The translations under genes were made by a program, and so were the position numbers. The notes under the pieces were generated by a model. That model saw nothing but the letters and a program-made list of their open reading frames with translations, had not been told where the DNA came from and searched no databases. Below, piece after piece: positions 36,022-43,490 of a stretch of DNA of 64,000 nt (within the stretch, counting starts at the first letter, position 1; the number at the start of each line of letters is the position of its first letter). The stretch is from a virus. The stretch is taken from positions 1 through 64,000 of the IMG/VR virus record IMGVR_UViG_3300047478_000138; one strand, written 5' to 3'.

Positions 36022-36039
36022 GCTAGGGAGTTCCCTAGC
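36022..36039 (-). other. Hairpin over the stop codon of the glycyl-radical peptide gene
   Basis: GCTAGGG - AACT - CCCTAGC, a perfect seven-base-pair stem containing the TAG stop of the preceding ORF. There is no T-run. It could protect the mRNA 3' end or attenuate translation of the next ORF. Confidence 0.35.
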
Positions 36040-36199
36040 AAGATGGACAAGATTGAGATTCGGTAAAGAACTGACGTTCCTTGTGCTCTCCCTGCTTGCC
36101 GATGTTGAAGCGTTCCACAGGTACTGTGTAACCCATAACTCTACTGTAAACAATTGGTTTAGTGCGCTCAGTTGAATGAGCTGATAAAATGCTTGACAT
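36035..36199 (-). CDS. Stand-alone glycyl-radical domain of class III ribonucleotide reductase
   Basis: 54 residues with a very strong ribosome site (AAGGAGATCTT). The core YSRVMGYTVPVERFNIGK, with Gly23 in RVMGY, matches the glycyl-radical loop that normally ends NrdD (E. coli-type RxCGY followed by a Phe-Asn-x-Gly-Lys segment). The peptide ends CPSC. The main nrdD gene directly upstream ends after its zinc-binding Cys cluster and has no RVxGY loop. I infer that the radical domain is supplied in trans as a separate subunit, in the way YfiD substitutes for the C-terminus of pyruvate formate-lyase. Confidence 0.75.
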   Translation of the reverse strand: MSSILSAHSTERTKPIVYSRVMGYTVPVERFNIGKQGEHKERQFFTESQSCPSC

Positions 36200-36250
36200 A
36201 AGATCTCCTTAAAATGGTGCAGGACTTACACTTGCGATGCCTGTTAGTAA

Positions 36251-38083
36251 TTAACAGTCGTTGCTGCAGCTTGGTTGGTACTTCTGTATGATTTCCTCGT
36301 CACATTTAGGGCAGAAATCATGCTCTCCATTAAGGTATCCATGTTTAGGGCATACAGAAAATACTGGAGTAATTGTAATGTAAGGCAACTTATAATTTGA
36401 TATAACTGACTTAACCAATGCCTTACAAGTATCTGCTGATTTTAGGCGCTCATTCATGTATAAGTGGAGAACTGTTCCGCCTGTGTATTTACACTGGAGG
36501 TTATCCTGTAGGTTAAGGGCTTCAAAGGCGTCCTTGGTGTGTCCTGCTGGGATCTGGGAAGAATTAGTGTAATAGATGTTCTCTCCGAATCCTGCTTGCA
36601 AAATGTCTGGGTAACGTTTCTTGTCCTCTTTGGCAAATCTGTAAGTTGTTCCCTCTGCAGGAGTTGCTTCAAGATTATAAAGGTTTCCAGTTGCTTCTTG
36701 AAACTCAACCATACGAGAACGGATATGTTCTAGGATTTCAATAGCAAAGGACTCACCTACTTCTGTAGTGATGTCTAGTGAATCATCGGAGAAGTTGCGT
36801 GCCATTTCGTTAAGTCCATTTACCCCAATAGTAGAAAAGTGATTACGGAAGTGTGGTAAGTAGCGTTTGGTGTATGGGTATAGTCCACGATCATACATTT
36901 CCTGTACAAATACACGTTTCTTCTCAAGAGTTGATTTAGCCATTTCCATTAGTTCATCAAGACGTTTATACAATGCTGGTAAATCTCCTTTGTAGAGATA
37001 TCCTAGGCGAGCCATATTTATAGTGACAACGCCGATAGATCCTGTCATTTCAGCAGAGCCGAATAGTCCGCCGCCACGCTTGAGTAGTTCACGGAGATCG
37101 AGTTGCAAACGGCAGCACATTGAACGGACATGTCCAGGTTTATATGCTTCGTCGTTAGGCACTAGTTTACCTTCTGCGTTACGCTTGTATTGCGAACCTA
37201 TAAAATTTTGGAAATAAGATGAGCCAACTTTTGCTGTGTTCTCAAATAAAACATCAGTGTTCGGACCATCCCAATCAAAGTCCTCTGTAATGTTTACAGT
37301 TGGAATAGGGAAAGTGAAGGGATTCCCTACTGCATCACCCTCGGTTAATACTTCGTAGAATGCACGGTCAATTATTTGCATCTCTGGATGAAAGTCTCCA
37401 TAAGTTGCATCAGTAAGTGATTCAATAGATGATCTGCGATTCTTCAATTCGGATAGAAGTTCTCTAGAGTTCATGCCAAGGAATAGGTGCTTCTGCTCAC
37501 AAGTAGGGATTTGCGGAGCTAGATCAGTTGGTACAGTCCAGTCAATTGTAACATTCGTAAATGGAGATTGTCCCCATCTAGCCGGTACATTGAGGTTATA
37601 TACAAATTGACGTATTGCCTTCTTTACTTCAACAAATGGCAGTTGATCTTTGAAGATATAGGGTGCAAGATACGTATCAAATGAGCTAAATGCTTGAGCC
37701 CCTGCCCATTCGCTTTGCAAGATACCTAAGAAATTTGCCATCTGTCCGAGTGCTTCGCGGAAGTGGCGGGGTGCGCGAGATTCAACTCTGCCACGGACAC
37801 CATTAAAGCCCTCGTCAAGTAATGCGCGAAGCGACCATCCTGCGCAGTATCCTGTAAGACAGTCGAGATCGTGGATGTGATAGTCACCCTCACGATGTGC
37901 CTCTCCCTCTGGTTTGTTATATACTACATCAAGCCAATAATTAGCTATTGGTTTGCCTGCAAGGTTATTTACAAGTCCTGCGTTTGTGTAGTCTGTGTTA
38001 GCATTGGCATTAATACGCCAGTCTGCTTTAAGTACGTACTCTTCAACTGCTGTTGTAGAGTTAATCATTGTAGTTCGTTTCAT
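36251..38083 (-). CDS. nrdD: Anaerobic (class III) ribonucleotide reductase catalytic subunit NrdD, lacking its glycyl-radical tail
   Basis: 610 residues. The N-terminal third contains EGDYHIHDLDCLTGYCAGWS and later NLNVPARWGQSPFTN, both characteristic of class III reductases. The C-terminus has the zinc cluster pattern CPKHGYLNGEHDFCPKC and ends PSCSNDC. Start at 38083 is chosen for its GGGAGG site and TAATG coupling to nrdG. It reduces NTPs to dNTPs without oxygen once the radical is installed. The usual C-terminal RVCGYL-type loop is absent from this ORF and is found in the 54-residue gene just downstream. Confidence 0.9.
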   Translation of the reverse strand: MKRTTMINSTTAVEEYVLKADWRINANANTDYTNAGLVNNLAGKPIANYWLDVVYNKPEGEAHREGDYHIHDLDCLTGYCAGWSLRALLDEGFNGVRGRVESRAPRHFREALGQMANFLGILQSEWAGAQAFSSFDTYLAPYIFKDQLPFVEVKKAIRQFVYNLNVPARWGQSPFTNVTIDWTVPTDLAPQIPTCEQKHLFLGMNSRELLSELKNRRSSIESLTDATYGDFHPEMQIIDRAFYEVLTEGDAVGNPFTFPIPTVNITEDFDWDGPNTDVLFENTAKVGSSYFQNFIGSQYKRNAEGKLVPNDEAYKPGHVRSMCCRLQLDLRELLKRGGGLFGSAEMTGSIGVVTINMARLGYLYKGDLPALYKRLDELMEMAKSTLEKKRVFVQEMYDRGLYPYTKRYLPHFRNHFSTIGVNGLNEMARNFSDDSLDITTEVGESFAIEILEHIRSRMVEFQEATGNLYNLEATPAEGTTYRFAKEDKKRYPDILQAGFGENIYYTNSSQIPAGHTKDAFEALNLQDNLQCKYTGGTVLHLYMNERLKSADTCKALVKSVISNYKLPYITITPVFSVCPKHGYLNGEHDFCPKCDEEIIQKYQPSCSNDC

Positions 38084-38553
38084 TAGTCCTCCCAAAATTT
38101 GTGTGTAATATCTGTATGTGTGAGTAAATCATACATACGCTGATTAGTTGTTCGATTTGTCAATCCACCCATACTTGATACATAAGGTCCAGTCTTGATA
38201 TAACGACATACATTAAGTATCTCTGGATGCACATCAGATAACTCAGCTCCTGTGTATAGGCATACTTGCAAATTCAGTGAGTTAACAAAAGTTGCTAGTT
38301 CAATAAATTCCTTGTGATGCTGTTCACCACCAAAAAAGACTACACAAGTTACTGTGTATGCTCCTGTGTGAGGCGATTGGTACTTATTAAGAAGCTTCAA
38401 CAATACATCAGAAGTAAGAGGATATCCAACATCAGTTTGTAAGTATGCTGAATGACATCCACTACAACGGAATGGGCAATTAGATATGCTGATTGCAAAA
38501 GATGTCTCTCCTGGGACTTCCTGAAAAGAAAGTGTGTAGCCTGTGTATTTCAT
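38083..38553 (-). CDS. nrdG: Anaerobic ribonucleotide reductase activase NrdG (radical SAM)
   Basis: 156 residues. The radical SAM cluster motif is CPFRCSGCH (Cys26, Cys30, Cys33), followed by VVFFGGEQHH, the SAM-binding GGE segment. The start at 38553 (MKYTGYTL) has AAGGA four bases upstream. It generates the glycyl radical, presumably on the separate 54-residue peptide in this phage. It is translationally coupled to nrdD by TAATG. A long stem-loop precedes it. Confidence 0.92.
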   Translation of the reverse strand: MKYTGYTLSFQEVPGETSFAISISNCPFRCSGCHSAYLQTDVGYPLTSDVLLKLLNKYQSPHTGAYTVTCVVFFGGEQHHKEFIELATFVNSLNLQVCLYTGAELSDVHPEILNVCRYIKTGPYVSSMGGLTNRTTNQRMYDLLTHTDITHKFWED

Positions 38554-38664: not shown

Positions 38665-38820
38665 TTAGTTAAAGTCATCAATATCTCCCTCAGCTGCTAT
38701 GGCTTGATGCTGTGCAATCCATTGAGCATCAAGTGCTTCAATTGCTGCTTGCTTGACCTCATAAGATGCTTCCGACAATTCGTAATTCCTGCGTTTAGTT
38801 AAGTAATCAGATTCGGTCAT
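38665..38820 (-). CDS. Small hypothetical protein downstream of nrdB, 51 aa
   Basis: It begins MTESDYLTKRRNYELSEASY and is helical and acidic, ending DIDDFN. Its ATG overlaps the nrdB stop (ATGA), so it is co-translated with NrdB. No family recognised. Possibly a reductase accessory or stabilising peptide. Confidence 0.5.
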   Translation of the reverse strand: MTESDYLTKRRNYELSEASYEVKQAAIEALDAQWIAQHQAIAAEGDIDDFN

Positions 38821-41009
38821 GGTAAGTTGCTCCAAAATTCAGGTGTTGTGTTAGTATCCACAATTCCAAGTAAATAGTTACCTGAAGTCTTCTCTTTCTG
38901 TGCTGTTTGCACATTAGATGGACGAGTATACTTATTAGCCCATACACAAGGATTTGGCACCTTGTCAACAATTGGAGGTTGTCCAACTGATGTCATAACA
39001 GAATGCAGATTATGTGTAACATACTGCTTAAGAACTGCGTTGTTCACGCCTAACAGGCGTGTGTCAGCATCGTAACAATAATCAATCCAATCAAAGTCTG
39101 CTTCTATAGCATCTCTATACAATTGATCAATAACTTCAGAATGCTCGTGAAAGATATAGGCCCAGTCAGGATCCTTACGTAAACGATTCAATAGAGTTAT
39201 GGTCATAGCATAATGCCCGGCTTCCGTTATATTCGAATAAGTTCGTTAAACTTATTCCGAGAGTTCTATAGTACTCTCTGCTATATGTTTCCATATAGAC
39301 TAGACTATATCATAGCCTCCACCATAATGTGGTAAGGCTCCTTCCGTTTCCAACTCACTTGAGCTGTACTCTACTTGCTTCCTATTAATATTCTTTCAAT
39401 TAATGGTGCTTTCGATAGTCGTTAAACTCGGAAATTATAAGTATTTTTCAATAAATGGTTTAAAGTAAGAGGGGCACTTTTTACTAATATTTCTGATATG
39501 GCATATTAAACTAGCATCACATCCAAATTCCTCTGCTATATCAGCGTTAGATCTTGTCGTTGTGTATGCTACTTTAGTGATTGTAGCAGCAATATCAATA
39601 TATTTACCTTTAAGTTTCTTACTTACTGGAGCAGAAACATTAGGAAATTTGGTATCCCATAAATGCTTCCATCTTTTTTGATGTCTAATAAGAGAAACAT
39701 ACCTAGAATGTAGTTCATACTTATGGGCTATATCTTCATTTGATGCACCATTTAGTATTAAATTAATAATATCAATAGCATCTTGGTTAGATAATTTAGC
39801 TGAAACATGGTCTTCACCTTGGATACGGTCTTGTAAACCTGTCTCAAACGCATGTAATTGGTTTTCTGCTCTAGTACACCACTCTAAGTTAGAGAAGTGA
39901 TTATTTTGCTTATTTCCATCAATGTGGTTTATTTGAGGTTTATTATCCTTATTAGGTATAAAAGCTTGTGCAACTAGTCTATGTACTAGGAAAGGTTTAG
40001 ACTGTCCTTGTGTATAAACTAATGATACATGTACATAACCACAGTTAGTAGTCACTGTAGCCATTTTATGACCGTTTGCTTTCTTACCTTTATATGAGAA
40101 TATGTCTCCGTTTTCATTTATTGTGTACCCTGGTAATCCAGGCACTGGTTTTTCGTTCATAATGCTCCTTTGCATCTATAATTTAAGTATGGATGAATTA
40201 TAACATTATGTAACTTATAATTGCCTTAGTAATTGATTGTCTTCACCATTATGTGTTAAGAGGTCCCAATTTTAGAAAGGTTATTCGACAGATATTTCTA
40301 CCTGAAGGGACAATTTGTGTTTATCCTGTGCGATTTTGCTAATGATGTCTGCAGTTACTGAGAATAAACCATTTTCCTTAAAAGCAAAGCTTGTAAGGAA
40401 TGATGACTTGAACAGAATAGCTTCAAGAATGTTTAATGCAAATAGTGACATAACAATAGAAACTTTGTGTGCTTCTATATCATATGTTGATGTTTGCAAA
40501 ATCATGTGGGAATTGTGTTGTACAGTATCATCGAAGCAAGCTACAATTGAGCTTGCACGCTTGAGTATTGCTGGATTGACCATAATATCATCAAAGATTG
40601 CTTTAGCATCAACAGGCAAGCCCTTGAGAATGTCTGCATACGATTGGCTATGAATGTTACCTTCAAAGAATGCATGTTGATACCACCAGACTTCCAATTG
40701 TGGGTTAGTAGTTACTGGAATAAATACTTCAGCAACTGATCTAGCAGCAAGTGAGTCAAGTAAGGTCTGGAATTTCAAATTCTTCATATATAGTTGTTGG
40801 AGTTTAGGCCCACAACTAATGTAGTCCTTGCCATCCTTAGATGGTGAGAAATCTCCTGGGAACCACATCTTCCCAATAGCAGCTGCAGTTGCAGCACTAA
40901 TATGAGCTTCGATAGATAAATCAAGTCGGGATATATTACGACCATTCGGATCCAAAAATAGTGAGGACTTAGTAAAATCTACTGGATTAGGATTAAATAA
41001 ATGACTCAT
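38817..41009 (-). CDS. nrdB: Class Ia ribonucleotide reductase beta subunit NrdB, interrupted by a group I intron
   Basis: Two exons, 41009-40323 and 39224-38817, join to 364 residues in frame. Exon 1 has the diiron region FFEGNIHSQSY (one residue longer between Glu and His than E. coli FSETIHSRSY) with the radical Tyr in SQSY, and NILEAILFKSSFLTSFAF. The join restores IAQD|EAGHYAM, matching E. coli IARDEALHLTG, so Glu and His iron ligands come from exon 2. Exon 2 continues WIDYCYDADTRLLGVNNAVL to SGNYLLGIVD. Exon 1 read on without splicing stops after 13 intron-encoded residues. It overlaps nrdA by ATGA. NrdB supplies the tyrosyl radical under oxygen. Confidence 0.9.
39225..40322 (-). mobile_element. 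Group I intron in nrdB
   Basis: 1098 bases. The 5' exon ends in T (GAT) and the intron ends in G (ATAACG), as group I introns require. The 3' core is visible: R-type element AACGACTATC (about 39411-39423) and S-type element GATATAGTC (39303-39311), whose ACTAT/ATAGT segments pair as P7. It also shares TCTATATGGAAACATATAG with the helicase intron (one base different there). It encodes an HNH homing endonuclease. The insertion is in the codons for the second iron-ligand motif. Confidence 0.85.
39435..40160 (-). CDS. Intron-encoded HNH homing endonuclease (NUMOD4 + HNH)
   Basis: 241 residues from the ATG at 40160, which has AAAGGAG. N-terminal NUMOD4-like segment (VPGLPGYTINENGDIFSYKG), then the HNH core HRLVAQAFIPN and INHIDGNKQNNHFSNLEWC. 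The C-terminal part has two helix-turn-helix-like regions (NGASNEDIAHKYELHSRYVS and NADIAEEFGCDASLICHI) that may read the target. It should cut intronless nrdB alleles and drive intron homing. Confidence 0.85.
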   Translation of the reverse strand: MNEKPVPGLPGYTINENGDIFSYKGKKANGHKMATVTTNCGYVHVSLVYTQGQSKPFLVHRLVAQAFIPNKDNKPQINHIDGNKQNNHFSNLEWCTRAENQLHAFETGLQDRIQGEDHVSAKLSNQDAIDIINLILNGASNEDIAHKYELHSRYVSLIRHQKRWKHLWDTKFPNVSAPVSKKLKGKYIDIAATITKVAYTTTRSNADIAEEFGCDASLICHIRNISKKCPSYFKPFIEKYL

Positions 41010-43228
41010 ACTGAACAACCTCCGCCTTGGCATGTAGAAGTAAGTTCCTGTTCATCTGGAAGCTTAACATTCATATAATATCTCCCTTTGCAACCGTAAT
41101 ACTTCGCTAGAAATAAGTCACTAATAACTGATGTTGATAGCACTTTCCCGCCATTCAATTCAGGATTGTAGAATGTATTTGCTGATATGCCCTTGTCGAT
41201 CCACTTCTGCGTAACTGCAACGTGCTTGATGAAGTCAGCATTAATGTCCCTATCGTATGCAAAGTCATATTTATCTGCTAATCGAATACAATCAGGTGCG
41301 AATTGTTTGTAATTCACTCCAGATTTGTCCTTGATTGTCATCAAATTACGAATTGGCTCAAGACCGGTTGTCTGATTAGATGGACCGGCAGAGGTTTCTG
41401 CAGGAGGTACCATCATTAGACCGACATTATACATACCATGTCGGAGAATTTGCGTGTCTAACCATTCCCAATCACAATAAGTTGCTGATGAAACAAGTTC
41501 GTCAACATTGCGATTGTAACGATTGATAGGCAATAACTTGTCATGATAGATAAAGCCTGGAGCTGCTCCAAGTTCTTGTGCAAGTTGCATAGATGCTACA
41601 TGACAGTCAAATGAGAAATTCTCCATCCATTCGTTATGTGCTTCAAGTGCTGCTGAATTGCCGTATCTCCAACCGTGATGAGCCAACCAAAATGCATGAT
41701 TAGATAATCCAAGACCAATATCACGATAAGTAGCTACATAGGCGTTTGCTTGAGATGTAGGGTGTACTTGTCGTTGCATGATATGCGATTGTGCGCGAAC
41801 CAATAGATTAGTGACGTGTGGTAATTGGTCAATGGAAACAAGTCCCTGATTGACGTTACCAAGTACACATACACCAATATCAGGATTGTCAGGTTGCTTC
41901 GGATCAAGGGGTTGCACACTAGTCATAAACTCAATACAAATGTTTGCCATATTAATAGGACGAGGAATACAAGAGTTTGCATTCATTTCATCAATATTCA
42001 ATATGTAGTATGATGAAGTTTCCGTGGATTCAACTGCAACTAAACGATTCCAGAAGTCCTGTGCATCAATCTGTCCGCTATAAAGCTCTGCTGCTTCACA
42101 TTCCTCATAATACTTTGTAAATGAATCAACATCTGCTGAGTAAAATAACTCAAGCATGCGTGGACACTTACGAGTAGAGAATAGTGAAATAGGTCTACCA
42201 TCCTTGGCACGATCATATACAAGTTGGTTGACTTTGATACCATAAGATAAATCGTTAACACGATCCTCTACCGGCATACGAGGTGACTTAAGTGCAAAGA
42301 TAGTTTCTATCTCTGGGTCAAAGAAATTCAGATATGGAGTAGCTGATCCGCGTCTGCCGTTCTGGGAGGCTTTGCTGATGTTTGCATCAATTGATTTGAT
42401 AATAGGTAACTTACCAGAATGAGATATTCTGCCTTGCTTAACCTTATCCCCAATTGAGGCTAAATCTGCAATATCCTCACCAATGCCGGCTGATGCTACT
42501 GTATGCAATACTAAAGCCTTGTCACATTCAACCCATGAATCAATAGAGTCTCCTCTACGAAAAACTATACATGAAGCATAATCAGTTGATATTGTGCGAA
42601 GAGACTTCATTTCCGGGGTTGGAAGAGTGATATGAAATAGTGATAAAGCATTGTAAAAGTCAATAATGTACTGGGTTGGGTTAATATGATAGTCATGAAA
42701 TGTGTCAATAGCAATTGCCATAAACATAAATTGTGGGGTTTCATACTTGCAAACACCATACCCATTAACTAAAGCATCAAGTCCAGATGAGGTGAAAGTA
42801 AAATCACGTGAGTGATTAATTGCTTGCTCAAGTGCTTGTATGTCAATTCCATTATAAATTAATCTAGGTGGAGATAATTCTGGTGAATAATGTCCAGCTA
42901 GAACTCGTTCAGTTAAGAATTCAGTTAAACTAGGTGGATTGATTGACTTGAAAACATGCTTGTACAATTTCTGCAACTTGAGATTGCGTGCTACTGTATC
43001 GTAATTGGGATTACGCAAGTCTGCTAAATCATCACATGTCTTGATAAAAATATCAGTGATATAACTAGTATGGATTCCGTCAAATAAATGTAATTTTGAC
43101 TGAATCTCTATATCAGACACTGATACTCCTGATACTCCATTAACAGCCCACTCAAGACTTGCTGTTGCTTTAGATATGTCCAAAGGTTCCAGCTTCCCAG
43201 AGTGCTTAACTACATGAATAGTGGACAT
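41006..43228 (-). CDS. nrdA: Class Ia ribonucleotide reductase alpha subunit NrdA
   Basis: 740 residues from the ATG at 43228, the start that aligns with E. coli NrdA (MSTIHVVKHSGKLEPLDISK). Active-site regions are visible: YASCIVFRRGDS, NMANICIEFMTS, GVCVLGNVNQG, and the radical-transfer Tyr pair in GRYYMNVKLP. It ends CQGGGCSV, the C-terminal redox-active Cys pair. The N-terminal ATP-cone appears short or degenerate (LDISKATASLEWAVNGV). It reduces NDPs together with NrdB, which overlaps by ATGA. An HU-like gene lies directly upstream. Confidence 0.93.
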   Translation of the reverse strand: MSTIHVVKHSGKLEPLDISKATASLEWAVNGVSGVSVSDIEIQSKLHLFDGIHTSYITDIFIKTCDDLADLRNPNYDTVARNLKLQKLYKHVFKSINPPSLTEFLTERVLAGHYSPELSPPRLIYNGIDIQALEQAINHSRDFTFTSSGLDALVNGYGVCKYETPQFMFMAIAIDTFHDYHINPTQYIIDFYNALSLFHITLPTPEMKSLRTISTDYASCIVFRRGDSIDSWVECDKALVLHTVASAGIGEDIADLASIGDKVKQGRISHSGKLPIIKSIDANISKASQNGRRGSATPYLNFFDPEIETIFALKSPRMPVEDRVNDLSYGIKVNQLVYDRAKDGRPISLFSTRKCPRMLELFYSADVDSFTKYYEECEAAELYSGQIDAQDFWNRLVAVESTETSSYYILNIDEMNANSCIPRPINMANICIEFMTSVQPLDPKQPDNPDIGVCVLGNVNQGLVSIDQLPHVTNLLVRAQSHIMQRQVHPTSQANAYVATYRDIGLGLSNHAFWLAHHGWRYGNSAALEAHNEWMENFSFDCHVASMQLAQELGAAPGFIYHDKLLPINRYNRNVDELVSSATYCDWEWLDTQILRHGMYNVGLMMVPPAETSAGPSNQTTGLEPIRNLMTIKDKSGVNYKQFAPDCIRLADKYDFAYDRDINADFIKHVAVTQKWIDKGISANTFYNPELNGGKVLSTSVISDLFLAKYYGCKGRYYMNVKLPDEQELTSTCQGGGCSV

Positions 43229-43229
43229 G

Positions 43230-43490
43230 CTAGTTAAGTACTCGTTTAAGTGCTGCTGAAGGGCTGAACTTAACTGTCTTAGTTGTATACGGATTGCCTG
43301 TACCAGGTGCTTTACCAGAACGTGTGACTGGTTTGAAGATACCAAATGTACTGCTAATAGTAACAGAATTGCCTGCTGCAAGTTGCTTACCTATAGTAGA
43401 TTCTAAATGATTCAAGATTGCTGAAGCAGCTTTCTGTGACTTAACTTCTGGGCAATTTGCCAACTCGATTAATAGTTCTTTTCTAGTCAT
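43230..43490 (-). CDS. HU/IHF-like DNA-binding protein
   Basis: 86 residues, matching HU throughout: MTRKELLIELANCPEVKSQK, the VTISSTFGIFKPV strand, the arm segment GTGNPYTTKTVKF (compare RNPxTGE) and a final FSPSAALKRVLN. AGGAG ribosome site. It would bend and compact phage DNA or assist replication. It sits one base upstream of nrdA, which lacks a good ribosome site of its own, so nrdA is probably coupled to it. Confidence 0.85.
   Translation of the reverse strand: MTRKELLIELANCPEVKSQKAASAILNHLESTIGKQLAAGNSVTISSTFGIFKPVTRSGKAPGTGNPYTTKTVKFSPSAALKRVLN

Follow-up and report, generated by a model that had tools for sequence, protein, structure and literature searches.

A phage class III ribonucleotide reductase predicted to carry its glycyl-radical site on a separate 54-residue peptide, in a split arrangement widespread in bacteria

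In the canonical class III ribonucleotide reductases, such as the NrdD enzymes of T4, Thermotoga maritima and Prevotella copri, a barrel fold with finger-loop cysteines, a zinc site and an RVxGY loop is served by an NrdG activase, and the radical domain is the C-terminal part of the same polypeptide. Small, diffusible glycyl-radical proteins that act in trans, part of them phage-encoded, have been described for another enzyme, pyruvate formate-lyase (PFL). These are YfiD/GrcA and the T4 protein Y06I, repair parts of 127 residues belonging to the PFL radical-domain family, and they are the only two such spare parts that have been validated (Andorfer et al., 2021; PMC8683613). Ribonucleotide reductases (RNRs) divided between genes are also known. 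The class II enzyme of Pseudomonas aeruginosa is encoded by two consecutive genes, nrdJa and nrdJb; the detached C-terminal portion, NrdJb, has a Cys-rich zinc/redox domain and not the radical residue (PMC5704485). Phage RNR genes, in turn, are interrupted by introns, inteins and homing endonucleases, as in T4 nrdD or Aeh1 nrdA-a/b, and it is in these terms that split phage nrdD genes have been treated (Dwivedi et al., 2013; PMC3653736). For NrdD itself, searches of the open-access literature gave no account of a split.

Here we describe a phage locus that shares features with these systems and in which the glycyl-radical domain of NrdD is encoded as a separate small protein. The window, i.e., the whole stretch of 64,000 nucleotides that was analysed (positions 1 to 64,000 of the IMG/VR record IMGVR_UViG_3300047478_000138), carries on its minus strand, in this order, nrdA, nrdB, nrdG, nrdD and a 54-codon open reading frame (ORF). 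The first two genes encode the large and small subunits of a class I enzyme: nrdA (41006..43381) matches PF02867 with an E-value of 2e-72, and nrdB (38817..41033) consists of two exons (40281-41033 and 38817-39206), both recognized by PF00268. Between the exons lie a group I intron core (39281..39472, minus strand; RF00028, E 3e-6, under the gathering score) and an HNH/NUMOD4 endonuclease ORF (39435-40175; PF13392). In T4, too, nrdB contains a group I intron that holds an endonuclease gene. The activase gene nrdG (38083..38553, minus strand) is found immediately upstream of nrdD, its stop overlapping the nrdD start by one base, and encodes a radical-SAM protein with the CxxxCxxC motif, which scores 140 bits with TIGR02826 (nrdG3), slightly below the cut-off of 151.7.

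The nrdD ORF (36251..38083, minus strand; ATG at 38083, stop ending at 36251) encodes 610 residues that match PF13597 (NRDD) at profile positions 2-534 of 562 (E 1e-157) and score 987 bits with NF006126/PRK08270, for which the cut-off is 548. As regards membership in class III, the catalytic domain is present, and so are the finger-loop cysteines (MCCR), those of the first strand and the zinc ligands, C-x2-H ... C-x2-C, at the C-terminus; in a 53-row alignment the protein retains the invariant C80, C323, C324, C578, C591 and C594. Right after the zinc ligands it ends with ...FSVCPKHGYLNGEHDFCPKCDEEIIQKYQPSCSNDC. The initial annotation had claimed that this ORF stops after the zinc Cys cluster with no RVxGY loop, and both the coordinates and a loop scan agree: no RVxGY-type loop occurs in the nrdD ORF, and the sole plausible one within the window is that of the 54-residue peptide. 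The loop being missing from the NrdD chain, the enzyme was filed as a split variant of class III RNR. The window NrdD also begins directly at the catalytic domain, and since it does not have the N-terminal ATP-cone of its bacterial relatives, it may escape inhibition by dATP.

The small ORF (36199-36035, minus strand) translates as MSSILSAHSTERTKPIVYSRVMGYTVPVERFNIGKQGEHKERQFFTESQSCPSC. Its radical glycine would be residue 23 (YSRVMGY), its C-terminus reads SQSCPSC, and a Shine-Dalgarno sequence, AAGGAG (36205..36210, minus strand), precedes its ATG by 5 nt; the radical loop, the strong ribosome site and the CPSC end are thus as first reported. A search against class III reductases had been proposed at that time. 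The peptide takes up PF13597 exactly where the core leaves it, at 535-562 of 562 (E 8e-6), so that core (2-534) and peptide (535-562) share the Pfam model with no gap between them, and an HMM made here from fused NrdDs matches it with an E-value of 8e-8. It also matches phrog_4132, a phage family of unknown function (E 3e-7). A PFL-type radical domain (Pfam Gly_radical, the family of GrcA/YfiD) was considered and rejected, the peptide matching only NRDD at E up to 10. Unlike YfiD/GrcA and Y06I, it is therefore a member of the NrdD family, and it would be an obligatory subunit instead of a repair part; unlike NrdJb, it carries the radical residue instead of a zinc/redox domain.

It is very probable that the pair is a true two-protein class III RNR, in which a core with the NrdD barrel is completed by a peptide that replaces its missing C-terminus and is the substrate of NrdG. 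The two proteins would be translated independently. The core is predicted to fold as an NrdD barrel with the zinc site at its end, and the peptide would bind where the C-terminus is missing, placing its RVMGY loop beside the finger-loop cysteines; NrdG, which is expected to activate the window peptide, would install the glycyl radical on it, and the pair would then carry out turnover. An AlphaFold2 model of the core, the read-through linker and the peptide as one chain reached a pLDDT of 83 and a pTM of 0.85. In this model the helix of the peptide has a pLDDT of 86; confidence is low in the linker and in the radical loop (mean about 37-66 around residue 651). Its best PDB match by Foldseek is the P. 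copri NrdD (8p2s, E 7e-25), class III RNRs ranking first and other glycyl radical enzymes next. Two benefits are likely. Oxygen cleavage at the radical would require the replacement of only about 6 kDa and not of the whole reductase, and the peptide could be supplied from another replicon, a phage included. If this is true, a 50-aa peptide, a core and an activase would constitute a simple system for studying the access of an activase to a buried active-site glycine.

The split architecture is widespread in bacteria and is not a phage oddity. IMG/VR was scanned with a codon-degenerate pattern for RVxGYxxPVxxxNxGK, and GTDB genomes with the narrower RVMGYxxPVxx[F/Y]NxGK, so that counts based on these patterns cover the GYxxPV type only. 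NrdD radical domains of this type very often stand alone, both in GTDB and among the IMG/VR matches listed, and at 83 of the 119 bacterial loci of the GTDB pattern set an NrdD core stopping at the same point is followed by a separate peptide. As the pattern set is biased, the Pfam model was also run on genomes sampled evenly. NrdD was found in 19 of 150 genomes of Pseudomonadota (12 fused, 7 split), in 36 of 81 of Campylobacterota (6 fused, 30 split) and in 8 of 99 of Bacteroidota (3 fused, 5 split). Pooled, these 63 genomes comprise 42 split and 21 fused, or 39 split out of 60 without the centre genome that each phylum set includes and that was picked as split. We call split class III RNR a core ending at PF13597 positions 528-537 accompanied by a separate peptide spanning about 530-562, an arrangement found in the window pair as well. 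A separate radical peptide is encoded in all 42 split genomes and in none of the 21 fused ones, and it is chiefly on this that the case for a joint function of core and peptide rests. If so, in at least three phyla a large proportion of the bacteria with NrdD would have a separate and replaceable radical-site subunit.

An action of the peptide in trans is indicated by one genome of Campylobacterota (G319; contig of 1,849,719 bp), whose core lies at 104 kb with no adjoining peptide. A radical peptide is found at 9 kb, beside an activase of the NrdG2 type (TIGR02495, 182 bits, cut-off 131), and, core and nrdG-linked peptide being 95 kb apart, this peptide would have to act in trans. Two further peptides are located in prophage lysis cassettes with holin and spanin genes, at 864 and 1157 kb. 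The proposal of a glycyl-radical domain supplied in trans by a separate peptide is thus strongly supported, both by this separation and by the co-occurrence across genomes. The activase of the window is of the NrdG3 type (TIGR02826) and that linked to the peptide in G319 is an NrdG2, for which reason the phage cassette seems to be a mosaic.

As to the origin of the window pair, in a tree of 105 cores the cellular split cores all belong to a single supported clade (88 rows). Nested within it are fused members (Actinomycetota, some alphaproteobacteria and Rickettsiales, and Maricaulis); they look like re-fusions, although the tree has no fixed root and the split may have arisen several times. 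The window core groups with the split core of Campylobacter concisus (97% SH-aLRT) inside this large clade and is 77% identical to a split core of Sulfurimonas, from which it appears that the enzyme was taken over already split. The window peptide, in turn, is closest to those of Campylobacter and other Campylobacterota (68-78% identity to their stand-alone peptides over the domain). Both partners being nearest to Campylobacterota sequences, the phage most likely took core and peptide together from a bacterium. Neither the peptide nor the core of the window gave a match when searched against IMG/VR, and in the closest phages of the databases NrdD is of the ordinary fused form only. In the core tree, two large phages (L030 and L071) represent independent splits.

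This ancestry bears on the alternative that a fused phage nrdD was broken by mutation, and that the pair reflects a sequencing error, a pseudogene or a recent decay. In its favour, three residues conserved around the radical loop are gone from the window peptide. The Arg of GYxRPV, present in 118 of 118 cellular peptides and in 116 of 118 viral ones (among the matches listed), is a Val; the His preceding it is a Thr; and a Pro stands in place of the Cys conserved in the N-terminal ERTxC motif. The change from HR to TV could stem from two compensating indels. On account of these replacements, the window copy may be altered, weakened or decaying. The E. coli NrdD reads GYLGSP at the GYxRPV position, and hence an NrdD can do without this Arg. 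Against decay as the source of the split, the split point is the same in the nearest relatives (77% identity), the core keeps all the invariant residues, the frames of core, peptide and nrdG are open throughout, and two stops plus a new ribosome site exceed what one error can produce. Indeed, the interval from core to peptide (36200..36253, minus strand: the nrdD stop and the spacer) contains two in-frame TAA codons and not one, so no single sequencing indel fuses the ORFs. A frameshift of this kind, named at the outset as a refutation, is excluded by the two stops and by the recurrence of the architecture in dozens of independently sequenced bacteria. The decay alternative is accordingly very unlikely.

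Neither does the break correspond to the interruptions described for other phage RNRs. No intron, intein or endonuclease gene was found in the 51 nt between the window core and peptide, which hold only the second stop and the ribosome site, and an intron- or intein-split nrdD was therefore rejected. Whereas in those phages the reading frame is interrupted by such elements, the window nrdD is split at a domain border, in a form that would be inherited from bacteria, and the intron and HNH gene of the window reside in nrdB.

The peptide family is under purifying selection, with pN/pS values, computed without the codons fixed by the search pattern, of 0.20 for cellular and 0.27 for viral peptides (the latter among the matches listed). 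A Glu and an Arg lying outside the pattern are near-invariant across the peptides. A Cys pair ends 22 of 98 cellular stand-alone peptides, where about 0.6 would be expected, as well as the window peptide (CPSC), and two fused phage NrdDs (L002:3677-6106 and L119:280-2334) have a glutaredoxin-like domain following the radical domain; the C-terminal Cys pairs might possibly be a redox tail.

Many phages carry the radical peptide alone. Among the matches listed, 69 distinct viral records, of 18-146 kb and some of them fragments, were searched whole: 56 contain only the peptide, 10 a fused NrdD and 3 a core plus a peptide. The lone viral peptides adjoin terminase, portal, protease, baseplate, endolysin and integrase genes, often of head, tail or lysis regions, and a search for a shared neighbour showed diverse phage genes around them, none recurring widely. 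Extra peptide copies in cellular genomes similarly adjoin integrase, Erf, Gam and endolysin genes, and in a sample of bacterial genomes with both extra peptides and an NrdD core, the core was split in 8 of 8. Like the window peptide, the lone phage peptides match phrog_4132. Some phages and bacteria hold two to four copies of the peptide; in L046 a 60-aa peptide is encoded twice, at a distance of 3.5 kb, and G066, G063 and G061 are also multicopy.

These observations could be taken to mean that the peptide is only a spare part, serving a complete reductase cleaved by oxygen as YfiD serves pyruvate formate-lyase. The numerous viral records with a peptide and no core are what is expected of a spare, and T4 Y06I and YfiD are precedents (PMC8683613). 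However, the radical loop is absent from the split cores themselves, for which reason the peptide is there a required subunit and not a spare, and no stand-alone peptide occurs in the fused genomes of the even samples. As a general account, the spare-part explanation is highly improbable. The YfiD analogy, proposed from the start, is thus to be divided: it applies most directly to the peptide-only phages, for which a spare part for the host NrdD, comparable to YfiD/Y06I, is suggested and would be the best account, and it does not extend to the split cores. We are inclined, with some reserve, to the idea that phages and prophages across many hosts supply a lone NrdD radical subunit in trans to the split class III reductase of the host, as the RNR counterpart of T4 Y06I, so that a gene of about 50 codons would keep anaerobic dNTP synthesis going in the infected cell. 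If this is true, a phage protein family of unknown role would acquire a function, and the spare-part idea would be widened from pyruvate formate-lyase to the synthesis of DNA precursors.

There is finally the question of whether one chain or two are made. In the window, core and peptide share the reading frame, the nrdD TAA being followed by 17 codons that include the second TAA. TAA ends 46 of the 71 predicted genes of the 80.8-kb viral record and is thus the commonest stop, which rules out a recoded sense codon. In all 82 adjacent core-peptide pairs of bacteria both genes are on one strand, but the frame is shared in only 32 and differs in 50, and the spacing varies; a general read-through or bypass is ruled out on these grounds. 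T4 gene 60 is a case of translational bypass. That translation joins the two ORFs into one working chain, by stop-codon read-through or a bypass of the gene 60 type, is extremely improbable, for although the window ORFs are in frame and in four Campylobacterota genomes (G054 included) a single TAA separates the peptide from the core within one frame, the window has two TAA and a strong Shine-Dalgarno, the frame differs in most bacterial pairs, 95 kb lie between the two genes in G319 and prophages carry the peptide alone.

The two-protein reading is also favoured by Cupriavidus necator H16. On its megaplasmid pHG1, the core (WP_011154155, 676 aa), the peptide (WP_011154154, 66 aa, annotated "nrdD") and nrdG are consecutive, and nrdDG of this strain has been reported to be essential for complete denitrification (PMC2864759). 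If the reading is true, the annotated nrdD and nrdG expressed alone from a split species would yield a dead enzyme. In the public records of C. necator pHG1 (L245) and C. metallidurans (NC_007974), the small peptide is either annotated as "nrdD, anaerobic ribonucleoside-triphosphate reductase" or unlisted, and such annotation masks the absence of the radical site from the large "reductase".
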